DNA of 54,528 nt from an uncultured Pelagibacteraceae bacterium (GTDB lineage Bacteria > Pseudomonadota > Alphaproteobacteria > Pelagibacterales > Pelagibacteraceae): NCBI GenBank assembly GCA_902603905.1, contig CACKWM010000006.1, positions 1 through 54,528 on the forward strand, in the 5' to 3' direction. The position numbers were made by a program, and so were the translations under genes. Positions 2,685 through 16,460 of this stretch are shown piece after piece; the first letter of the stretch is position 1; each line of letters opens with the position of its first letter. Below the pieces are notes generated by a model, which worked only from the letters and a program-made list of their open reading frames with translations, was not told where the DNA came from and ran no database searches.

Positions 2685-3290
2685 ATGAAAAAATTTAATT
2701 CATTAAAAAGCATTCCTGCATATCTACCAATAGTTAATATTGATACTGATATGATAATTCCTAAACAGTTCTTAAAAACTATTAAAAGAACTGGGCTTGG
2801 AAAAAATTTATTTTTTGAAATTAGGTATGACAATGATGGAAAAGAAATCAAAGATTTTGTTCTTAATCAAGAACCTTATAATAAATCAAAGATTTTAATT
2901 ACAGGAAAAAATTTTGGATGTGGATCTTCGAGAGAACACGCCCCTTGGGCATTAGCGGATTTTGGAATTACATGCATAATAAGTTCTAGTTATGCAGATA
3001 TATTCTATAATAATTGCTTTAAAAATGGAATTTTACCAATTGTTTTAGCAGAAGAAAAAATTAAAGAACTTTTAGAATACTCTAAAAGAAAACAAGAAAT
3101 ATCAATTGATTTAACTGAAGAAAAAATTTTTTTTGGCAATAAAGAAATTAAATTTGAAATTGATTCATTTAAAAAAAAATGTTTATTAGAAGGTCTTGAT
3201 GATATTGCTCTTTCTTTAGAAAAAGAAGAAAAAATTTTTTCTTTTGAAAAAAATTTAAAAAATCAAAAACCGTGGATATTTAATGATTAA
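2685..3290 (+). CDS. leuD: 3-isopropylmalate dehydratase small subunit
   Basis: This is the swivel-domain subunit of isopropylmalate isomerase. The 201-aa length is typical for the bacterial leuCD type. Signature segments are [14 protein letters not shown] at residues 17-30 and [17 protein letters not shown] at 74-90, which contains the conserved Ser/Arg substrate-binding loop. The start ATG lies 1 nt after the leuC stop, and the 3' end overlaps leuB by 8 nt, consistent with translational coupling across leuCDB. Confidence 0.97.
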
Positions 3291-4389
3291 AATAAAAAAA
3301 AGAAAAGTATTACTATTACCTGGAGATGGAATTGGTCCTGAGGTTACTAGAGAAGTAAGAAAAATTATTGAATGGTTTAATAAAAATAAATCTTTAGATT
3401 TTGAGATTGATGAAGATTTAGCTGGTGGAGCCTCTTATGATAAGCATGGCACTCCTATTACTGATGAAGTTTTTTATAAAGCTTTAGAAAGTGAAGTAGT
3501 AATACTTGGAGCGGTAGGTGGACCTAAATGGGATAACCTTGAGTTTTCAAAGAAACCAGAAAGAGCATTACTAAAATTAAGAAAAGAACTAAAATTATTT
3601 GCCAATTTAAGGCCAGCAATTTGTTTTAAACAGTTAGTTGATGCATCAAGTCTTAAACCTGAAATAGTTTCTGGGTTAGATATTATGATCGTTAGAGAGC
3701 TTACCGGTGGAATTTATTTTGGAGAACCTAGGGGGATTAAACCAATAGACAAAGGTGAGAGAAAAGGCATTAACACTCATACTTACACTACAAGCGAAAT
3801 AGTAAGAGTAGCAAAGGTTGCTTTTGATTTAGCTAAAAAAAGAGCAAATAAAGTTACATCTTGCGAGAAATCTAATGTAATGGAAGCAGGACAGCTATGG
3901 AAAGAAGAAGTTCAAGCACTGCATGATAAAGAATATAAAGATGTTGAATTAAATCATATGCTTGCAGACAATTGCGCAATGCAATTATTAAGAAATCCAA
4001 AACAGTTTGATGTAATTGTAACTGATAATTTATTTGGTGATATGCTATCAGACCAGGCCTCTATGTTAACTGGTTCGTTGGGACTTTTGCCTTCAGCTTC
4101 TCTTGGTGCAAAAAATAAAAATGGTGAAATGAGAGCTATGTATGAACCTATACATGGAGCTGCTCCTGATATTGCTGGCAAAGGTATAGCTAACCCAATT
4201 GCTACAATTCTGAGTTTTGCTATGGCGCTAAAATATTCTTTAGATTTGGATAAAGAGGCAGAAGGTTTAGAAAAAGCTGTTCAAAGTGTGTTAGATGATG
4301 GATTTAGAACAAAAGATATTTTAACCAAGGGAATGAAAGAAGTATCAACCACTGAAATGGGTGATGCGATAATTTCAAAATTGAAATAA
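3283..4389 (+). CDS. leuB: 3-isopropylmalate dehydrogenase
   Basis: LeuB oxidatively decarboxylates 3-isopropylmalate to 2-oxoisocaproate with NAD+. The 368-aa protein shows GDGIGPEV at residues 14-21, the substrate-binding helix [18 protein letters not shown] at about 94-111, and the metal-binding [12 protein letters not shown] at 246-257. [18 protein letters not shown] segment follows and forms part of the cofactor pocket. The start overlaps the leuD 3' end by 8 nt. LeuA is not in this window. Confidence 0.97.
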
Positions 4390-4415: not shown

Positions 4416-6179
4416 ATGCCAATTTATACCGCTCCCGTTGAAGATATGATGTTTCTTTTTAATAAGTTAAGAAATAATAAAAATTATAATGAGATAGAGA
4501 AATATAAAGAAGTTAATTCTGAATTAGTAAAGGATATTTTAGAAGAAGCAGCTAAGATTAACCAAAATATTATATTGCCATTAGCAAAATCAGGAGATGA
4601 AAATCCAACTATTTTAGAAAATGGAGTAGTTAGAACCCCACCGGGTTATAAAGAAGCTTATACTAAATTTATTGAAGATGGATGGACATCTTTATCTTGT
4701 GATCCAAAATACGGTGGTCAAGGAATGCCAAAAACAGTTAGTTCTTTTTTTGATGAAATGCTATCATCTGCAAGTCTTTCATTTAAACTTTATAGTGAAT
4801 TGAGCATTGGTGCTTATAATTGCATTTCACATCATGCAACAGATTCTATTAAAAATAAATTTCTTCCCAAAATGGTACAAGGAAAATGGAGTGGCACTAT
4901 GTGTTTAACCGAACCAGTATGTGGAACAGATCTTGGATTGTTAAAAACTAAAGCAGTAGAACAATCAGATGGAACTTATAAGTTAAGTGGACAAAAAATA
5001 TTTATTACTTCAGGAGATCATGATCTTACAGAAAATATTATACATTTGGTAATAGCTAGAGCAGCAGATTCCCCAGCTGGAACAAAGGGTATAAGTTTAT
5101 TTTTGGTACCCAAATTTATTGTAAATGAAGATGGATCTATTGGATCTAGAAATGGAATTTCTACTGGATCTATAGAAAGCAAAATGGGAATTAAAGGTTC
5201 TGCCACATGTGTATTAAACTTTGATGATGCGATTGGTTATATGATTGGGCCAAAGAACAAAGGACTTAATGCTATGTTCACCATGATGAACTTAGAAAGA
5301 ATTGTTGTTGGAATTCAAGGTTTAGGAATTTCTGAAATTGCTTATCAAAATTCATTAAGTTATGCAAAAGAGAGAAAACAAGGAAAAGCAAATAATAGTA
5401 ATTCATCTAATGGTGCGGATTTTATAATTGAGCATGCAGATATAAGAAAATCTCTGCTTAACATGAAGTCTATCATCGAAGGAGAAAGAGCACTTTGTTT
5501 TTGGTTATCACAACAAACAGAAGTCAGTCTTAATCATCAAGATCAAAAAGTGAAACAAGAAGCATCTGATTTTGTTTCTTTGATGACGCCAGTAGTTAAA
5601 ACAATGTTTACTGATATGGGTATGGAAATAACAAGCGAAGCTATGCAAGTTCATGGTGGCTATGGTTACACAAAAGACCAAGGAATTGAACAACTTTATC
5701 GAGATAATAGAATTACACCAATTTATGAAGGCACAAACTCTATTCAGGCTGCTGATTTGGTATTTAGAAAGTTAGTTAATAGAAATGGCGATGTAATTAA
5801 CAAATATTTAGATATGATTAAAAATGATTGCAATACTGAAAACGAGAAAATCAAACCTTTTGCAAAAGAATTGACTGATCACATAGAAGTTTTATCTAAT
5901 TTTACAGTTTGGATTAAAGAAAAAATTCAAAACTCAAAAGATGATGCAAGTGCAGCATGTAATGATTATTTAAAAGCATTAGGCTTTGTATCTATAGGAC
6001 ATGCATGGATAAAAGTTTTAGAGGTAAGCTTTAATGATTATGATAATAATAAAAATTTTTATGAAGACAAAATACAAACTGCAAAATTTTATTTTAAAAG
6101 GGTTTTGCCAAGGGCAGAAAATCACTTTAAAACTGCTATAACTGGAAGTGATTATATAATGAACTTTAAGTTTAATTAA
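4416..6179 (+). CDS. dmdC: Acyl-CoA dehydrogenase, probable methylmercaptopropionyl-CoA dehydrogenase DmdC
   Basis: A flavin (FAD) acyl-CoA dehydrogenase of 587 aa. It is longer than the standard 380-400 aa because of extra N-terminal and C-terminal parts, as in the DmdC/FadE-long group. Visible motifs are CLTEPVCGTDLG at about 163-174, QVHGGYGYTKDQG at 411-423 and the catalytic-base segment ITPIYEGTNSIQA with E438. DmdC oxidises 3-methylmercaptopropionyl-CoA to methylthioacryloyl-CoA in DMSP demethylation. Substrate is inferred from the neighbours: dmdB starts 1 nt downstream and dmdA is two genes further on. Other acyl-CoA substrates cannot be excluded from sequence alone. The ATG at 4416 follows leuB by 26 nt, with no clear promoter. 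Confidence 0.87.
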   Translation: MPIYTAPVEDMMFLFNKLRNNKNYNEIEKYKEVNSELVKDILEEAAKINQNIILPLAKSGDENPTILENGVVRTPPGYKEAYTKFIEDGWTSLSCDPKYGGQGMPKTVSSFFDEMLSSASLSFKLYSELSIGAYNCISHHATDSIKNKFLPKMVQGKWSGTMCLTEPVCGTDLGLLKTKAVEQSDGTYKLSGQKIFITSGDHDLTENIIHLVIARAADSPAGTKGISLFLVPKFIVNEDGSIGSRNGISTGSIESKMGIKGSATCVLNFDDAIGYMIGPKNKGLNAMFTMMNLERIVVGIQGLGISEIAYQNSLSYAKERKQGKANNSNSSNGADFIIEHADIRKSLLNMKSIIEGERALCFWLSQQTEVSLNHQDQKVKQEASDFVSLMTPVVKTMFTDMGMEITSEAMQVHGGYGYTKDQGIEQLYRDNRITPIYEGTNSIQAADLVFRKLVNRNGDVINKYLDMIKNDCNTENEKIKPFAKELTDHIEVLSNFTVWIKEKIQNSKDDASAACNDYLKALGFVSIGHAWIKVLEVSFNDYDNNKNFYEDKIQTAKFYFKRVLPRAENHFKTAITGSDYIMNFKFN

Positions 6180-6180
6180 T

Positions 6181-7809
6181 ATGAGTCATTACGATACAAA
6201 CCTCGATAAGAATGAAGCAAATTATGTCCCGCTGTCTCCACTTTCATTTTTAGAAAGAACAAAAAATATTTATCCTAATTATGAGGCTATAGTTTATGAA
6301 AGCAGATCATACACTTGGTCTGAGGTGTATAAAAGATGTGTTAAATTTGCGAGTGCACTAGATAAAATAGGAATTAAAACAGGTGATACTGTTTCAGTTA
6401 TGGCATTTAATACACCTGAAATTTTTGAAGCCCATTATTCGATTCCTATGGTTGGTGCTGTAATTAATGCAATCAATACAAGGCTTGATCCAAAAACAAT
6501 TAGTTATATTTTAGATCATAGTGACGCAAAAGTTTTAATTGTAGATAGACAATTTAATAAAGTTGTTACTAAAGCTTTATCAAATGTAAAATCTAAAATA
6601 ACTATAATTGATATAGACGACAAAGATGCAAATCTTCCAGATTCAAAAAAAATTGGAGAACTTGAATATGAACAGTTTTTAAATACAGGAGATGAGAATT
6701 ATAATTGGAAAAAACCAAAAGATGAATGGCAAGCTATTTCTTTAGGCTATACTTCAGGAACAACCGGAAATCCCAAAGGTGTTGTTTGCCATCATAGAGG
6801 TTCTTACTTGATGGCCACTGGAAGTGCAACTGCTTGGAATATGCCTAATAAACTAAATTTTTTATATACAGTACCAATGTTTCACTGTAATGGATGGTGT
6901 TATACTTGGACAATGTCAATGTTGCACGGACGAGTGATTTGTTTAAGAAATATTGATGTTAAAAAAATTTTTGAGTTAATTGATAAGTATGATGTTACTC
7001 ATTTTGGTGGTGCACCAATCGTTTTAAACATGATAGCTAATGCTCCTAAAGAGCATCAAAAAAAATTAAAAAGAAAAGTACACGTATTAACTGCAGGAGC
7101 CCCACCTCCAAGTATTATATTTGAGAAAATGCAAAATTTAGGTTTTGATGTGATGCATGTTTATGGATTGACTGAAACTTATGGACATATTTTACAATGT
7201 GCATGGAACGATGAATGGGAGAATTTAGATCAAGAAAAACAAAATGAAATTCGAGCAAGACAGGGAGTTATATATCCTAATCTTGAAGGAGCAGTAGTTA
7301 TGGACCCGGAAACCATGAAACCTGTACCAAAGGATGGAAAAACTATGGGAGAAATTATGATAAGAGGAAACGTTGTAATGAAAGGATATTATAAAGATAA
7401 AGATGCAACAGAAAAATCAATGAAAGGTGGATGGTTTCATTCAGGTGATTTGGCTGTTACTTATCCAAATGGATATATTAAAATTCAAGATAGATCCAAA
7501 GATATTATTATTTCTGGCGGAGAAAATATTTCGTCAATTGAAATAGAAAATACCATAGCAAAGCATCCAGCAGTATCTTTAGCTGCGGTTGTTGCTAAAC
7601 CAGATGAAAAATGGGGAGAAACTCCCTGTGCATTTGTAGAGTTAATTGATGGAAAAAAAGCAACAGAAGAAGAAATAATAAAGTTTTGTAGAGAAACTTT
7701 GGCAGGATTTAAATTGCCTAAAAAAATAGTATTTTCTCCATTACCAAAAACTTCAACAGGAAAAATCCAAAAATTTGAACTAAGGAAAAAGGTCAAGGAG
7801 TTAAACTGA
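6181..7809 (+). CDS. dmdB: Acyl-CoA synthetase, probable methylmercaptopropionate-CoA ligase DmdB
   Basis: An ANL-superfamily adenylating enzyme of 542 aa. DmdB activates 3-methylmercaptopropionate, the product of DmdA, to its CoA thioester with ATP. Motifs are the P-loop YTSGTTGNPKG at residues 190-200, YGLTETYGH at about 335, GWFHSGDLAV at about 420, the hinge DRSKDIIISGGENIS, and the catalytic C-terminal lysine in TSTGKIQ (K528). The family also includes medium-chain fatty acid ligases; the assignment to DMSP metabolism comes from the cluster with dmdC and dmdA. Its stop codon overlaps the putative CTG start of the next gene (CTGA), and an AAGGAG at 7795-7800 lies inside its last codons. 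Confidence 0.88.
   Translation: MSHYDTNLDKNEANYVPLSPLSFLERTKNIYPNYEAIVYESRSYTWSEVYKRCVKFASALDKIGIKTGDTVSVMAFNTPEIFEAHYSIPMVGAVINAINTRLDPKTISYILDHSDAKVLIVDRQFNKVVTKALSNVKSKITIIDIDDKDANLPDSKKIGELEYEQFLNTGDENYNWKKPKDEWQAISLGYTSGTTGNPKGVVCHHRGSYLMATGSATAWNMPNKLNFLYTVPMFHCNGWCYTWTMSMLHGRVICLRNIDVKKIFELIDKYDVTHFGGAPIVLNMIANAPKEHQKKLKRKVHVLTAGAPPPSIIFEKMQNLGFDVMHVYGLTETYGHILQCAWNDEWENLDQEKQNEIRARQGVIYPNLEGAVVMDPETMKPVPKDGKTMGEIMIRGNVVMKGYYKDKDATEKSMKGGWFHSGDLAVTYPNGYIKIQDRSKDIIISGGENISSIEIENTIAKHPAVSLAAVVAKPDEKWGETPCAFVELIDGKKATEEEIIKFCRETLAGFKLPKKIVFSPLPKTSTGKIQKFELRKKVKELN
7795..7800 (+). promoter_or_regulatory. Shine-Dalgarno AAGGAG deciding the hydrolase start
   Basis: A near-consensus ribosome-binding site, 5 nt before CTG 7806, inside the 3' end of dmdB. 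No comparable motif precedes the GTG at 7833. Strong sites are uncommon in this window, so its presence supports the CTG start and a coupled CTGA stop-start overlap. Confidence 0.65.
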
Positions 7810-8582
7810 ATTTAAAAGTTGATGAAAAAGACGTGTTCGTCTCTACAGGCGGCATAGACTTCGATAAAGAAAAACCATCAATATTATTGATGCACGGAAG
7901 TGGACTGACTCATATAGTTTGGTCACTTCATGAACAATTTTATGCTTCACAGGGATTTAATGTTTTATCTGTAGATCTTCCAGGACATGGAAATTCAGAG
8001 GGTCCATCACTTGAATCTATAGAAAAAATTTCTAATTGGGTAAAATCGTTAATGAATGTTCTTAGTATTAAAAGAATAATTATTATAGGACACTCTCAAG
8101 GATCTCTTATAGGTATTGATTTTGCATCTCGATACCCTGATTTAATTAGTAGCTTAGTTTTGGTTGCTGGAACTTACAAAATGCCAGTCAATCAAGATCT
8201 TATCGATTATGCAGAAGCAGGCGATGAAAAAGCAGTTTTACTTATGATGAAGTGGGGCTATGAAGGATCAAAAGCATTTATAGGAGGCAATCCTGTAAAA
8301 AAAATAATTAATTCATCCCGCGACATTAGAGAAATTTTAGCTGTAGACTTAAATGCTTGCAACAATTACAAAGACGGCAAAGAATCTTTAAAAAAAATCA
8401 ATTGTCCAACGTTATGTATATTTGGTGATTTAGATAAAATGGTTCCCTTAGAAGTAGGAAATAAAATGGCATCTATGATAAAAAATTCTGAAAAAAAAAT
8501 AATTAATAATTGTGGACACATGATAATTTTTGAAAAGGCATTTGAAATGAGAAAAACTGTAAAAGAATTTTTAACTAAATAA
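7806..8582 (+). CDS. Alpha/beta hydrolase in the DMSP cluster, probable CTG start
   Basis: An alpha/beta-fold hydrolase of 258 aa by the start chosen here. The catalytic triad is visible: nucleophile elbow GHSQGS (S97), an acid in FGDLDKMV (D208 or D210) and H238 in NCGHM. The oxyanion segment LLMHGSG and [12 protein letters not shown] fit the fold. Known alphaproteobacterial relatives begin with a first strand like VNGKEVF-x4-GG, and here [12 protein letters not shown] matches only if translation begins upstream of the GTG at 7833. The sole candidate in that open stretch is CTG at 7806, preceded by AAGGAG at 7795-7800 with 5-nt spacing. Substrate unknown: a thioesterase or hydrolase acting on a DMSP-pathway intermediate is only an inference from position between dmdB and dmdA. 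Confidence 0.8.
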
Positions 8583-8584
8583 TT

Positions 8585-9694
8585 ATGAAAAATTATTTTA
8601 TTGCAAGATCAAGAAGAGTTAGAAGTACGCCTTATACTCCAAGAATTGAAAATCAAGGTGTAACTGCTTATACAGTTTATAATCATATGCTTTTGCCAGC
8701 TGCATTTGGTTCTTTAGAAGATTCTTATAATCATTTAAAGGAGCATGTCCAAGTTTGGGATGTTGCAGGAGAAAGACAGGTTGAAGTTTCTGGAAAAGAC
8801 TCTGCAAAATTAGTTCAGTTAATGACCTGCAGAGATCTTTCAAAATCTAAAGTGGGAAGATGTTATTACTGTCCAATTATAGATGACAAAGCAGGTTTAA
8901 TAAATGATCCTGTTATATTAAAACTTGATGAGCAACGTTGGTGGATTTCTATAGCAGATTCAGATGTAATTTTATTTGCAAAAGGTTTAGCAATTGGAAA
9001 CAAATTTGATGTTAAAATATTTGAACCAAACGTAGATATATTAGCTGTACAAGGACCAAAATCTTTTAAACTTATGGAAAAAATATTTGGAAAAAAGATT
9101 ACAGAAATGAAATTTTTTGGATTTGATTATTTTGAGTTTACTGGAGCAAAACACTTAATTGCTAGATCTGGGTGGTCAAAACAAGGAGGTTATGAAATTT
9201 ATGTAGAAGACACAAAATCTGGACTAGCCTTATACGATAAACTTTTTGAACTTGGTAAAGAATTTAATGTAAAACCGGGATGTCCAAATCTAATTGAAAG
9301 AATTGAAAGTGCTTTACTATCTTATGGCAACGATATTGATAATAATGATAACCCACTTGAGTGTGGTTTAGATAAATATGTCAATTTAGATACAGATGTT
9401 AATTTTCTTGGAAAAGAAAAATTAAAAGAAATTAAAAAACAAGGAATTAAAAGAAGATTAATGGGAGTAAAAATTGAAACAAAAACAATTAATGTTTCAA
9501 AATCAATAAAAATTTTTGATGAAAAAAACAATGAAATTGGAGAATTAAGATCTGGAGTTTATTCTCCTCATTTTGGTCAGGTTATAGGAATAGCGATGAT
9601 GCTTAAACCCTATTGGAATAAGTCACAATCCTTTAAAATTGAATTAAACGGTAAGAGTTTTGATGGAAAAGTTTGTGATTTATCATTCATCTAG
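8585..9694 (+). CDS. dmdA: Dimethylsulfoniopropionate (DMSP) demethylase DmdA
   Basis: DmdA transfers one methyl group from DMSP to tetrahydrofolate, giving 5-methyl-THF and 3-methylmercaptopropionate. It belongs to the GcvT (glycine cleavage T-protein) fold but is a separate clade. The 369-aa protein agrees throughout with the P. ubique DmdA as I know it: the N-terminal [77 protein letters not shown] and the C-terminal SPHF plus DLSFI. GcvT proper begins differently and lacks these segments. The gene starts 2 nt after the hydrolase and closes the dmdC-dmdB-hydrolase-dmdA run. It is the strongest taxon marker in the window. Confidence 0.96.
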
Positions 9695-9713: not shown

Positions 9714-10712
9714 ATGAATATTACGATTGTAGGAGCCACTGGTAACGTTGGAAGGAAAATTATAGAGATTTTAGAAAAAAAAAATTTTCCTATTGATGCC
9801 TTATATTTGGTTGCATCTTCTAAAAGCGCAGGATCAAAATTAAGATTTAAAGAAAAAGAAATTGAAGTTGAAAATTTAGAAACTTTTGATTTTTCAAAAG
9901 GTGAAATTACTTTTTTTTCTGCCGGCAGCAAAATATCAGAAAAATATGCAGCAAAAGCTGCAAAGCATTCAACTGTAATTGATAATTCAAGCTATTTTAG
10001 AATGGATCCTGATGTTCCTCTTATTGTTCCAGAAGTTAATCCTAATGATTTAAAAAATCATAAAAAAAAAAATATTGTAGCAAATGCCAATTGTTCAGTA
10101 ATACCTTTAGTTGTAGCGCTTAAACCTCTTCATGATTTATATAATATAAAAAGAATTGTTGCATCTACGTATCAATCAGTTTCTGGAGCTGGCAAAGCTC
10201 CAATGGATGAATTGTTATCACAAACAAAAGATTTTTTTGATACTAAAGAGCTGAGATCAAATTATTTTACAAAACAAATCGCATTTAATGCGATTCCACA
10301 TATAGATAATTTTTTAGATAGTGGCTACACCAAAGAAGAGCAAAAAATGCATGATGAAGTAAAAAAAATTTTAGATTCAAAAATTAAAGTAACATCTACA
10401 TCAGTTAGAATACCTGTTTTGGTTTCACATGCTGTAAGTGTTAATGTTGAATTTAATAAAAAATATAAATTCAATGAAATCAAAAATGTATTAAATACCT
10501 CACCCGGGTGCAAAGTCATCGATGAACATAAAGATGGAGGCTATATTACACCAGCTGAAGCTGAAAATAAATTTGATACATTCATTTCTAGAGTTAGAGA
10601 AGATAATTCTCAAAGTAATACAATTAATTTATGGATTGTTTCCGATAATCTTCTTAAAGGTGCGGCTTTGAACGCAGTAGAGATTGCTGAAATATTAATT
10701 AAAAATAAATAA
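9714..10712 (+). CDS. asd: Aspartate-semialdehyde dehydrogenase
   Basis: Asd reduces aspartyl-4-phosphate to aspartate-4-semialdehyde with NADPH, the branch point to lysine/DAP, threonine and methionine. The 332-aa protein has GATGNVG at residues 7-13 for nucleotide binding and the active-site ANANCSVIP with C127. The substrate segment YQSVSGAGKA follows, and the acid-base His lies in the RIPVLVSHAVSVNVEF region. It runs directly into sdhC with no gap. Confidence 0.96.
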   Translation: MNITIVGATGNVGRKIIEILEKKNFPIDALYLVASSKSAGSKLRFKEKEIEVENLETFDFSKGEITFFSAGSKISEKYAAKAAKHSTVIDNSSYFRMDPDVPLIVPEVNPNDLKNHKKKNIVANANCSVIPLVVALKPLHDLYNIKRIVASTYQSVSGAGKAPMDELLSQTKDFFDTKELRSNYFTKQIAFNAIPHIDNFLDSGYTKEEQKMHDEVKKILDSKIKVTSTSVRIPVLVSHAVSVNVEFNKKYKFNEIKNVLNTSPGCKVIDEHKDGGYITPAEAENKFDTFISRVREDNSQSNTINLWIVSDNLLKGAALNAVEIAEILIKNK

Positions 10713-11096
10713 ATGGAAAATAAAAAACCTTTATCGCCTCATATTCAAATTTATAGTTGGAATATTTCTTCTTTAATTTCTATTTCTCACAGAATAGCAG
10801 GTGTAATAAATTTATTAATATTCACATTAATCTGCTTCTGGATAGGTTTATTGATGTTAGGTGAATCAAATTATGAATATATAAAATTTTTTCTTCAATC
10901 ATATTTTGGAAAATTTTTAATCTTATGTTTGACTTGGTCATTTATTTTTCAAATATTAAGTGAAATCAGACATTTATTTTGGGATTTTGGATATGGTTTT
11001 GAATTAATTACTTCAAAAATTTCAGGACTTTTTGTTATTTTTGGATCATTTATCTTAACAGTACTAATCTATTTAATTGGAAAGCAGATTATTTAA
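10713..11096 (+). CDS. sdhC: Succinate dehydrogenase cytochrome b556 subunit
   Basis: A 127-aa membrane anchor of complex II with three hydrophobic helices (about residues 22-48, 62-85 and 100-125). The family signature SISHRIAGV near residue 25 and the heme-ligand region SEIRHLFWDFGYG near 87-99 are present. Together with SdhD it binds heme b and the quinone site. The ATG follows the asd stop without a spacer. Small, but its place directly before sdhDAB makes the identity secure. Confidence 0.93.
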   Translation: MENKKPLSPHIQIYSWNISSLISISHRIAGVINLLIFTLICFWIGLLMLGESNYEYIKFFLQSYFGKFLILCLTWSFIFQILSEIRHLFWDFGYGFELITSKISGLFVIFGSFILTVLIYLIGKQII

Positions 11097-11097
11097 T

Positions 11098-11427
11098 ATG
11101 GTTAATGCAACAAAAAAATGGATATTTCTTAAAGTAAGTTCAATAATACTTATTCCATTGATGCTATGGTTTATTGTAAATTTAGTATCAATTTATGAAA
11201 AAGATTATATTGATATTGTAAGTTTTTTTTCTACTCAACCGTCAAAATTTCTGACATCTCTTTTAATAATTGTAGCTTTCTTTTATTCTTCATTAAACAT
11301 CAGTGAAATTTTTGAAGATTATATTCATGATGAAAATTTAAAAAATATAGCAAATAAAACTATGTATGCATTGTCAGTAATAATTCCTTTTTTAACTATA
11401 ATTGTAATTTTTAATTTAAATATATGA
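11098..11427 (+). CDS. sdhD: Succinate dehydrogenase membrane anchor subunit
   Basis: A 109-aa protein with three membrane helices (about residues 13-30, 46-64 and 85-105). The YIHDEN segment between the second and third helices supplies the heme/quinone-side His and Asp typical of SdhD. I chose ATG 11098, 1 nt after the sdhC stop, over an in-frame TTG at 11077 that would overlap sdhC by 20 nt. The sequence itself diverges strongly, so position between sdhC and sdhA carries much of the call. It overlaps sdhA by 4 nt (ATGA). Confidence 0.88.
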
Positions 11428-13199
11428 GCTCTTATAAAATTATAGATCATGAATATGATGTAGTAGTGTTGGGAGCTGGAGGCGCGGGATTAAGGGCAGC
11501 AGTAGGTCTTAGTGAGGCAGGTTTGAAAACAGCTTGTATATCAAAGGTTTTTCCAACTAGAAGTCACACTTCAGCAGCTCAAGGAGGTATTTCTGCAGCT
11601 TTAGGAAATATGGGAGAAGATGATTGGCGTTGGCATATGTATGATACAGTTAAAGGATCAGATTGGCTAGGAGATCAAGACTGCATAGAATATTTATGCA
11701 AAGAAGCTCCAGGAGCTGTTTTAGAATTAGAAAGATATGGCGTTCCATTTAGCCGGACAGAGGATGGAAAAATTTATCAAAGACCTTTTGGGGGAATGAC
11801 TAAAAATTATGGTAATGAAACTGTTCAGCGAACTTGTGCAGCAGCAGATAGAACAGGCCATGCAATATTGCACACAATGTATGGACAGGCTTTAAAACAT
11901 AACACTAGGTTTTTTATTGAGTATTTTGCTTTAGATTTATTAATGAAAAATGGAGAGTGCAAAGGTCTAATAGCTTGGAATTTAAATGATGGAACTATTC
12001 ATAGATTTAGAGCTCATATAACAATAATAGCCACAGGCGGATATGGTAAGACTTATTATTCTTCAACATCAGCTCACACATGCACGGGCGATGGAAATGC
12101 TATGGTTTTAAGGGCTGGTTTACCTTTGCAAGATATGGAATTTGTTCAATTTCATCCAACAGGAATTTATGGACATGGAACTTTAATCTCAGAAGGAGTT
12201 AGAGGTGAAGGTGGTTATTTATTAAACTCTAAAGGAGAAAGATTTATGGAGCGTTATGCTCCAAAAGCTAAAGATCTTGCATCTAGAGATGTTGTGAGCA
12301 GATCAATAGCTATTGAAATTAAAGAAGGAAGAGGAATTGGAAAAGAAAAAGATCATGTCCATCTTCATTTAAATCATTTGGATCCAAAAGTAATTGAGGA
12401 AAGACTTCCAGGAATTTCAGAGTCTTCGAAATTATTTGCTGATGTTGATGTAACAAAAGAACCAATACCTGTAGTTCCTACAGTTCATTATAATATGGGA
12501 GGTATTCCAACCAATTATAAAGCTGAAGTTATAACTGTTAATGATTCTGAAAAAACTGTGCCTGGTCTTATGGCAATTGGTGAAGCAGCATGTGTTTCTG
12601 TTCATGGAGCTAATAGACTAGGATCAAATTCATTAATTGATCTAGTGGTATTTGGAAGAGCAGCAGCTAAAAGAGCTGCTGAACTTGTTAAACCTGGAAC
12701 TCCTCACGAGGAAATTTCAAGAACTGAAACTGATAAATGCCTAGATAGATTTGAAAAATTAAGAAATGGAAATGGAAGCAATAAAACAGCCGATTTAAGA
12801 TTGGCTATGCAAAAAACAATGCAATCAAAATGTGCAGTATTTAGGACTGAAAAAACTTTAAAAGAAGGAGTTAATGAAATAAGGAGGCCATTTAATGATA
12901 TGGATACAATTTCAGTAAAAGATAAATCTTTAATTTTTAATACTGATTTAGTTGAAACTTTAGAGTTTGATAACTTAATTAGACAGGCTATAGTTACAAT
13001 GGACTCAGCTTATCAACGGAAAGAAAGTAGAGGAGCTCATGCTAGAGAAGACTATCCAAAAAGAGATGACAATAAATTTATGAAACACACACTATCTTGG
13101 TGTCAAGGCAGTGAGACAAAGATTACTTATAGATCAGTTCATAGTTCAACTTTATCAAACGACGTACAGTATTTTCCTCCTCAAGAAAGGGTTTATTAA
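11424..13199 (+). CDS. sdhA: Succinate dehydrogenase flavoprotein subunit
   Basis: The catalytic FAD subunit of complex II, oxidising succinate to fumarate. It is 591 aa. The dinucleotide fold is [10 protein letters not shown] at residues 17-26, and the covalent-FAD histidine is H48 in SHTSAAQGG. Substrate-site segments are [11 protein letters not shown] and RGEGGYLLN, then [19 protein letters not shown]. The C-terminus carries [14 protein letters not shown]. It overlaps sdhD by 4 nt and sdhB by 1 nt. Confidence 0.98.
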
Positions 13200-13972
13200 T
13201 GGTACAAATAAATTTACCTCAAAACTCAAAAGTGCAAAAAGGAGAGTATTATAAGGATAAAACTGGATCAAAAAATATTAGAAAAGTGAATATTTATAGG
13301 TGGGATCCCTCAAGTGGAAAAAATCCGAGAATAGACACTTATGAAGTTGATATGGATAATTGTCCATCAAAAGTATTAGACTTACTAAATAAAATTAAAA
13401 ATGAAATAGATCCATCGCTAGCTTATAGAAGATCTTGTGCACATGGAGTGTGTGGTTCTTGCGCAATGAATATGGATGGAAAAAATGGATTAGCTTGTAC
13501 TAAACCACATGCTGAAATAAATGGAGATATTAATATTTATCCCTTGCCTCATTTAAAAGTTGAAAAAGATTTAATTGGAGATTTAAGTACTTTGTACAAG
13601 CAATATGAATCAATAGAACCATGGTTAAAAACAAGTGCAAAAGTTGAGAGTAAAGAAATTCTTCAATCTAGAGAAGATAGATCAAAATTAGATGGCGCAT
13701 ATGAGTGTATAATGTGCGCTTGTTGTTCAACAGCATGTCCAAGTTATTGGTGGAATGGTGATAAATATCTTGGACCGGCTGTTTTATTGCAAGCTTATAG
13801 ATGGATTATAGATAGTAGAGATGAAGAAAGAAAAGAAAGGTTAAAAAAAGTTGCTGATGAATTAAAACTTTATAGGTGTCATACTATAATGAATTGTACA
13901 AATGCATGTCCAAAAGGCTTGAATCCTGCAAAAGCAATTGCATCTATAAAGAAAATGCTTGCAACAAGTTAA
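13199..13972 (+). CDS. sdhB: Succinate dehydrogenase iron-sulfur subunit
   Basis: This subunit carries electrons from SdhA to quinone. The 257-aa protein shows the 2Fe-2S cysteines C80, C85, C88 and C100, then two ferredoxin-type groups: C170, C173, C176 and C180, and C227, C233 and C237. These supply the 4Fe-4S and 3Fe-4S clusters. The ATG shares its A with the sdhA stop. It closes the sdhCDAB operon. Confidence 0.98.
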
Positions 13973-13996
13973 TTACTTAATTAAATAATTTTGGCT

Positions 13997-16460
<2,464 letters not shown>

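Follow-up and report, generated by a model that had tools for sequence, protein, structure and literature searches.

Demethylation of dimethylsulfoniopropionate (DMSP) is described for Roseobacter as a series of reactions carried out by DmdA, DmdB, DmdC and DmdD or AcuH (PMC5395565), and the portion of that account available to us also names SAR11 enzymes of the pathway and portrays DmdD as a hydratase with hydrolysis activity. For Candidatus Pelagibacter ubique, a second account, likewise available in part, names DmdA to DmdC, gives DmdD as lacking and offers only the hypothesis that alternate enzymes carry out the methanethiol-releasing step (PMC5069961); a similar pattern is mentioned for SAR116 and SAR11 (PMC8547437). 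Sun et al. 2011 (PMC3160333) give dmdA, mhpC, fadD and mmgC of P. ubique strain HTCC1062 as a set in the legend to one of their figures. Here we analyse a dmdC-dmdB-hydrolase-dmdA cluster in an uncultured member of the Pelagibacteraceae that, compared by kind, has the same four genes as HTCC1062 (demethylase, alpha/beta hydrolase, CoA ligase and acyl-CoA dehydrogenase). The window, by which we mean the whole stretch of DNA analysed, lies at the beginning of contig 6, of which it covers bases 1 to 54528; the genome has 853 kb and is 61% complete. Because the gene set has been published for HTCC1062, it is already known; what is new here is the tie between its hydrolase and metY, the gene of a sulfhydrylase dependent on pyridoxal 5'-phosphate (PLP).

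The DMSP demethylation cluster of SAR11

A sequence-only reading of the window had proposed that four abutting genes for a long acyl-CoA dehydrogenase (DmdC), a CoA ligase (DmdB), an alpha/beta hydrolase and DmdA are set directly between leu and tricarboxylic acid (TCA) cycle genes. The open reading frame coordinates bear this out (Table 1): the four genes share a strand, their spacings are 1, -4 and 2 nt, leuB ends 26 nt upstream and asd starts 19 nt downstream. The arrangement is general in the genus. We took 101 genomes, found asd in 80 and fetched the surrounding stretches from 79 besides the window's own. dmdA precedes asd in 78 of the 79 asd-anchored loci, the exception being a contig end; the dmdA-asd gap is 15-21 nt in 77 loci and the leuB-dmdC gap 26-33 nt in all 65 loci in which it is measurable. 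Given this order and these near-constant gaps, the position of the cluster is not a product of chance, and the four-gene cluster is confirmed as real and as a fixed SAR11 feature.

The 369-aa protein encoded by the last gene is DmdA. It scores 571.9 bits against NF009133 (curated cut-off 410) and is identical at 280 of 369 residues (76%) to PDB 3tfh, which we take to be P. ubique DmdA. In a tree made by a quick method, with long-branch warnings for its outer rows, it falls together with 3tfh and 16 other cluster DmdAs in a single group with a support of 100 in the Shimodaira-Hasegawa-like approximate likelihood ratio test. That placement, together with GcvT models that all score below their cut-offs (152.7 bits for gcvT TIGR00528, cut-off 235.85), rules out GcvT as an identity for this protein; four other GCV_T proteins of the same genome that were placed in the tree (L001-L004) lie outside the DmdA group. 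The remaining assignments are graded. The acyl-CoA dehydrogenase is likely to be DmdC: it matches PDB 6ijc, presumably DmdC, with 507 bits over residues 2-582 and carries the catalytic Glu in the motif IYEGTN, but it reaches a higher score, 552 bits, with 8png, another long acyl-CoA dehydrogenase. The ligase is of the PRK08162 type (NF006020, 876 bits, cut-off 677) and misses the cut-off of the 3-(methylthio)propionyl-CoA ligase model NF005426 (344.8 versus 822 bits), so its naming as DmdB depends on the match to the gene set published for P. ubique, and we treat the ligase as a putative DmdB.

Many genomes of the genus encode a second DmdA-like protein, 46-51% identical to that of the window (L108-L125), and some a third (40-41%; L126-L128). 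As far as the retrieved sequence around these second and third genes extends, it contains no match to dmdB, dmdC or the hydrolase close to them.

Two sites of one hydrolase family

The hydrolase, on which the sequence-only reading did not dwell, is the most informative gene of the cluster. Among the clusters outside the window that have dmdB and dmdA matches on the contig, 28 of 77 are without the hydrolase, or 27 of 76 without L036 (G044), which is counted as hydrolase-less although its dmdA is truncated and it has no genuine dmdB. With L036 set aside, dmdB and dmdA are separated in these clusters by no more than 107 nt; three of the clusters (L073, L077, L080) hold an apparent remnant of the hydrolase C-terminus, read as a deletion scar. 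Mapped on a species tree built with FastTree (71 rows), hydrolase presence requires at least six changes. Searching the 101 genomes with a profile of the cluster form (E <= 1e-30) gave one match each in 83 genomes and none in 18. The matches split into 52 at 469-495 bits, the dmd-cluster form (hydA), and 31 at 217-285 bits, a second form (hydB) that is about 45% identical to the first (45% between the window copy and that of L142) and shares motifs with it along the chain. In 19 of 19 loci examined, the second form lies away from the dmd cluster and directly behind a gene for a PLP enzyme. The PLP enzyme tested (L142) is a PRK08134 O-acetylhomoserine aminocarboxypropyltransferase (663, cut-off 636), and the 31 genomes with an enzyme like it (90-100% identical) are exactly those with the second hydrolase form. 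None of the 101 genomes has both forms. The tree-based count, from which the contig ends L043 and L107 were left out, stands without L036 at 50 genomes with the cluster form, 23 with the metY form and four with neither.

We extended the search to 386 genomes of Alphaproteobacteria (at least 80% complete, the window's own apart), with thresholds that we set at 1e-45 for the hydrolase, 1e-180 for PRK08134 and PRK08162 and 1e-100 for FadB; at most 2-6 candidates were scored per genome, and the counts are lower bounds. This search found 110 hydrolase genes in 109 genomes and 108 PRK08134 genes in 107, in each case from 73 genera. With genes at most 500 nt apart counted as a pair, 106 of the 110 hydrolase genes lie downstream of a PRK08134 gene on the same strand, at a gap of -1 to 427 nt. 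The four unpaired hydrolases are three SAR11 copies (the window, G295 and G381) and one at a contig end, and both unpaired PRK08134 genes are at contig ends. The pair is present in about 28% of the sampled Alphaproteobacteria. The window hydrolase, which is not directly downstream of a PRK08134 metY, is by its sequence (45% identity to the metY-linked form of L142) a displaced relative. In 80 named loci, the metY-type hydrolase occurs in 49, and in every one of these the gene for the PLP enzyme lies upstream, in L231 at a distance of about 2 kb; the other 31 are SAR11 dmd clusters. In one SAR116 metagenome-assembled genome (L191, 3711-6988), a betaine-homocysteine methyltransferase gene stands directly before the metY-hydrolase pair.

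This distribution bears on two accounts of the hydrolase. The first is that it is an unrelated metabolic esterase riding in dense SAR11 operons, as its generic fold and the mixed functions of the SAR11 run (leu, asd and sdh beside dmd) would allow; the class-wide pairing with metY, seen in 73 genera, and the existence of two alternative SAR11 sites argue against this, and we consider it highly improbable. The second, which we hold to be scarcely more probable, is that the hydrolase acts as a homoserine O-acyltransferase of small size and supplies MetY with an acylhomoserine. MetX, which feeds MetY, is an enzyme of the alpha/beta hydrolase fold, the pairing with an O-acylhomoserine-using enzyme is near-obligate, and the hydrolase weakly matches the MetX-like putative esterase model NF005262 (35 bits, cut-off 450). 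However, of 17 genomes searched, which cover both hydrolase forms, 15 have a full-length MetX-like gene (439-460 bits, below the curated cut-off of 500), including that of the window, which makes it unlikely that the hydrolase serves as the cell's MetX. The window hydrolase is also absent from the TIGR01392 matches at E <= 0.001, among which the single cluster hydrolase is that of G062, at 17.5 bits. MetA gave no match above its cut-off in the 17 genomes and four weak ones beneath it.

Linkage to fadB and a proposed route of methanethiol release

The order dmdB-metY-hydrolase is found in 11 named alphaproteobacterial loci, from single-cell genomes and a metagenome-assembled genome. fadB, which encodes a 3-hydroxyacyl-CoA dehydrogenase/crotonase, precedes dmdB in ten of them, and the eleventh contig starts in dmdB. 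fadB also stands before dmdC in five named Pelagibacteraceae dmd clusters (L195, L197, L199, L202 and L218; in L195 and L202 the gene is truncated where the locus ends), four of which have a metF-like gene between dmdC and dmdB, and the order in these other lineages reads fadB-dmdC-(metF)-dmdB-hydrolase-dmdA. The FadB proteins have 3-hydroxyacyl-CoA dehydrogenase (HAD) and crotonase motifs. Contig 4 of the window's genome carries a fadB relative with 68% identity to the L199 gene, and this copy too shows the NAD-binding, HFFNP and crotonase motifs. Six further genomes of two families have the order metY-hydrolase-fadB. Outside SAR11, a full-length FadB-type gene lies within 3 kb of 7 of 107 hydrolase genes (three families) and a PRK08162 ligase gene within 15 kb of at least 18 (12 families), compared with about 0.1 and about 0.7 expected by chance if genomes are taken as 4.2 Mb and kinship is ignored.

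The cluster holds no DmdD-type hydratase, as the sequence-only reading had noted. That reading added that the last step must be done elsewhere or by another enzyme. In the genome, at 61% completeness, just two PF00378 crotonase matches were found. One is a stand-alone enoyl-CoA hydratase (NF006008, 346 bits, cut-off 313) that is closest to entries named enoyl-CoA hydratase, and the other is of the FadB type.

Because the hydrolase has its homes in a methanethiol-making cluster and in a pair with a PLP enzyme of a kind able to use methanethiol, its most likely place of action is the release or capture of methanethiol, and the cluster copy becomes a candidate for the final pathway step that is otherwise missing. 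In the known part of the pathway, DmdA would remove one methyl group from DMSP, the ligase would form methylmercaptopropionyl-CoA (MMPA-CoA) and the dehydrogenase would convert this to methylthioacryloyl-CoA (MTA-CoA). We propose that the FadB-type enzyme might then hydrate MTA-CoA to the hemithioacetal 3-hydroxy-3-methylthiopropionyl-CoA, and that its dehydrogenase half could use NAD+ to oxidize this hemithioacetal, giving malonyl-CoA as its S-methyl thioester. Splitting of the thioester into methanethiol and malonyl-CoA would fall to the serine hydrolase, and MetY would join methanethiol to O-acetylhomoserine to give methionine. In this way FadB and the hydrolase together would replace the missing DmdD. 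We see roughly even chances that this combination of a SAR11 DMSP demethylation cluster, a metY-family hydrolase and a FadB/hydrolase mechanism is the best explanation of the locus. The wider proposition, that SAR11 and many Alphaproteobacteria release methanethiol from MTA-CoA by an oxidative, non-DmdD route through FadB and a new family of S-methyl-thioester hydrolases that is obligately paired with a methanethiol-using MetY, is a tentative one that we regard as rather doubtful. SAR11 cells are among the most abundant in the sea, and the gene association names two candidates for the methanethiol-releasing step, the cluster hydrolase and the FadB-type enzyme, and also suggests a role for the hydrolase-metY pair. 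If the proposal is true, the product would be malonyl-CoA, which is measurable, instead of acetaldehyde.

A simpler rival is a divided DmdD, with hydration of MTA-CoA by a crotonase and with the hydrolase as an ordinary acyl-CoA thioesterase acting on the hydrated product, or on the malonate-semialdehyde-CoA left after loss of methanethiol, with no oxidation and with acetaldehyde as the product. DmdD itself is described as combining hydratase and hydrolysis activities (PMC5395565), P. ubique is described as being without it (PMC5069961), fadB and the hydrolase are co-located, and a stand-alone crotonase is also present in the genome. However, such a division by itself gives no account of the bond to metY in bacteria without visible adjoining dmd genes and would leave the dehydrogenase half of FadB idle, and we consider it unlikely. 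We give a similarly low weight to another simpler rival, a role confined to MetY, in which the hydrolase removes or salvages a by-product of the sulfhydrylation reaction (S-methyl thioesters formed by stray methanethiol, or homocysteine thiolactone) and its place in dmd clusters meets a shared need under abundant methanethiol. This would suit the 106 genes behind a PRK08134 metY, mostly with no dmd genes visible nearby, and the closest folds, which among the matches listed are lactonases and esterases. It sits poorly with the repeated linkage to fadB and PRK08162 ligase genes, and with the SAR11 cluster genomes, in which the hydrolase accompanies dmd and no PRK08134 metY was found.

Several points weigh against the oxidative reading that we prefer. 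Oxidation by FadB is undocumented for this substrate, and the substrate of the hydrolase is itself putative; the fold is that of a generic alpha/beta hydrolase, with an enol-lactonase as the best of the fold matches listed. Most PRK08134-hydrolase pairs have no visible adjoining dmd or fadB genes, and their partner may be metY alone. No fadB or metF is visible in 26 of the 31 named dmd clusters (the L196 and L242 loci do not extend beyond dmdC on its upstream side). The 18 genomes without a hydrolase match include four with a visible cluster (G027, G031, G039 and G056), which also have no PRK08134-type PLP gene, possibly through assembly gaps. The genomes with the cluster form have no PRK08134 metY; a different MetY was found in 35 of the 52. 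Finally, the mutual exclusivity of the two forms was tested by six independent pairs on the SAR11 tree, again from FastTree (median p 0.06; on average 5.4 of them agree, with no disagreement), and hydB requires 10 changes there, compared with six for loss of hydA. With so few independent pairs and this excess of changes, the support from exclusivity within SAR11 is suggestive.

Start codon, constraint and surroundings of the hydrolase gene

The -4 overlap with dmdB needs a CTG start at 7806 (CTGA), the first ATG, GTG or TTG in frame being a GTG at 7833. Across 50 copies from the genus, including that of the window, the start place holds TTG in 37, CTG in 13 and ATG in none, and in the cluster hydrolases it overlaps the dmdB stop or sits just behind it. 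In the 13 CTG copies, codons 2-9 are similar as protein with silent changes, and four of these copies are without the later GTG. An AlphaFold model with a mean predicted local distance difference test score of 88 places the first strand at residues 2-5, right after the CTG. The hydrolase probably starts at this CTG, a reading that is supported rather than proven. The 80 named loci, which may share genomes with the 50-copy sample, comprise 31 cluster copies with TTG (18) or CTG (13) and 49 metY-linked copies with ATG (47) or GTG (2). The presumed triad columns S97, D210 and H238 are invariant across 35 aligned copies, and the median ratio of nonsynonymous to synonymous substitution rates (17 pairs each) is 0.08 for the hydrolase, 0.07 for dmdA and 0.07 for asd; the hydrolase is under constraint similar to that of its neighbours. 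One copy, in L106 (G015:C5), is 87% identical to that of the window, yet its relatives in the tree carry the TTG type or none; asd in this locus is without its first part and has an in-frame stop. Gene exchange or a chimeric contig may account for the locus.

Table 1. Features of the window
Feature	Coordinates	Strand	Basis
leuB, conserved upstream neighbour	3283..4389	+	family model
dmdC-like long acyl-CoA dehydrogenase, 587 aa (likely DmdC)	4416..6179	+	Acyl-CoA_dh domains; match to PDB 6ijc
dmdB-like ANL acyl-CoA ligase, 542 aa, PRK08162 type (putative DmdB)	6181..7809	+	NF006020
alpha/beta hydrolase (hydA), 258 aa from probable CTG start	7806..8582	+	nucleophile elbow GHSQG
dmdA, DMSP demethylase, 369 aa	8585..9694	+	NF009133; identity to PDB 3tfh
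asd, conserved downstream neighbour, anchor of the synteny survey	9714..10712	+	family model
sdhCDAB and mmsA, continuing the same-strand run	10713..15490	+	sdhCDAB by sequence reading, mmsA by family model
full-length MetX-like protein, 369 aa	39048..40157	-	TIGR01392, 443 bits (curated cut-off 500)

Further genes after the cluster read as mdh, sucCD and sucAB, names that come from inspection of the sequences. The sequence-only reading had seen in this run a physical connection of sulfur uptake with the flow of central carbon, which goes too far: the run is a fixed SAR11 gene order, and reading a regulatory link into it is an over-reading. The interpretation given by that reading is partly supported. 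Between positions 3000 and 11200 there are 33 promoter-like sites, compared with 43 in shuffled sequences, and five terminator-like sites, compared with 2.6 (standard deviation 1.9), none of which we read as a boundary. Neither the window nor the surroundings of metY in five metY-hydrolase loci gave a riboswitch at the Rfam gathering score, whereas SAM-V precedes the other metY in 5 of 8 loci. IMES-2 RNA motifs lie in the sequence surrounding metY-hydrolase loci and also, for two genomes, surrounding the other metY (L129 16631-16771, L131 16642-16781, L134 17026-17166, L153 14037-14177 and L154 9649-9789). Behind sdhB, the mmsA slot of L034, L043, L072 and L094 holds only a reverse-strand relative of about 60% identity, a point that bears on the idea of mmsA, next to sdh, as a possible handler of malonate semialdehyde. 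Five genomes (window 1, G012:C1, G035:C13, G046:C3 and G065:C9) have a contig whose first base falls at almost the same place, shortly ahead of trmD, with dmdA at about 8.56-8.59 kb; one of the five is a single-contig genome, and the place may be a shared break or start.

Relation to known systems

In formaldehyde detoxification, FrmA oxidizes a hemithioacetal to a thioester with NAD and FrmB, a serine hydrolase of the alpha/beta type, then hydrolyses it. The proposed pairing of FadB with the hydrolase may work in a like manner, by oxidation followed by thioester hydrolysis, although the substrate and the dehydrogenase family are different. For the capture of methanethiol the nearest likeness is Rhodospirillum rubrum, in which a MetY-type enzyme makes methionine from O-acetylhomoserine and methanethiol, the latter in the form of a glutathione adduct (PMC4958253); there the methanethiol comes from methylthioadenosine, and the available text of that account mentions no hydrolase partner.

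The account of HTCC1062, in the part available, assigns the hydrolase no role and does not contain the exchange with the metY-linked form, the start codon or the versions with fadB and metF (PMC3160333). Titles and abstracts found in the open-licence literature likewise gave no role for the hydrolase, which is no proof of novelty. Set beside the Roseobacter pathway (PMC5395565, as far as the text available describes it), the cluster has the first three steps in common; it differs in being without a DmdD-type gene, in having a ligase that belongs to PRK08162 and not to NF005426, and in having a hydrolase built in.

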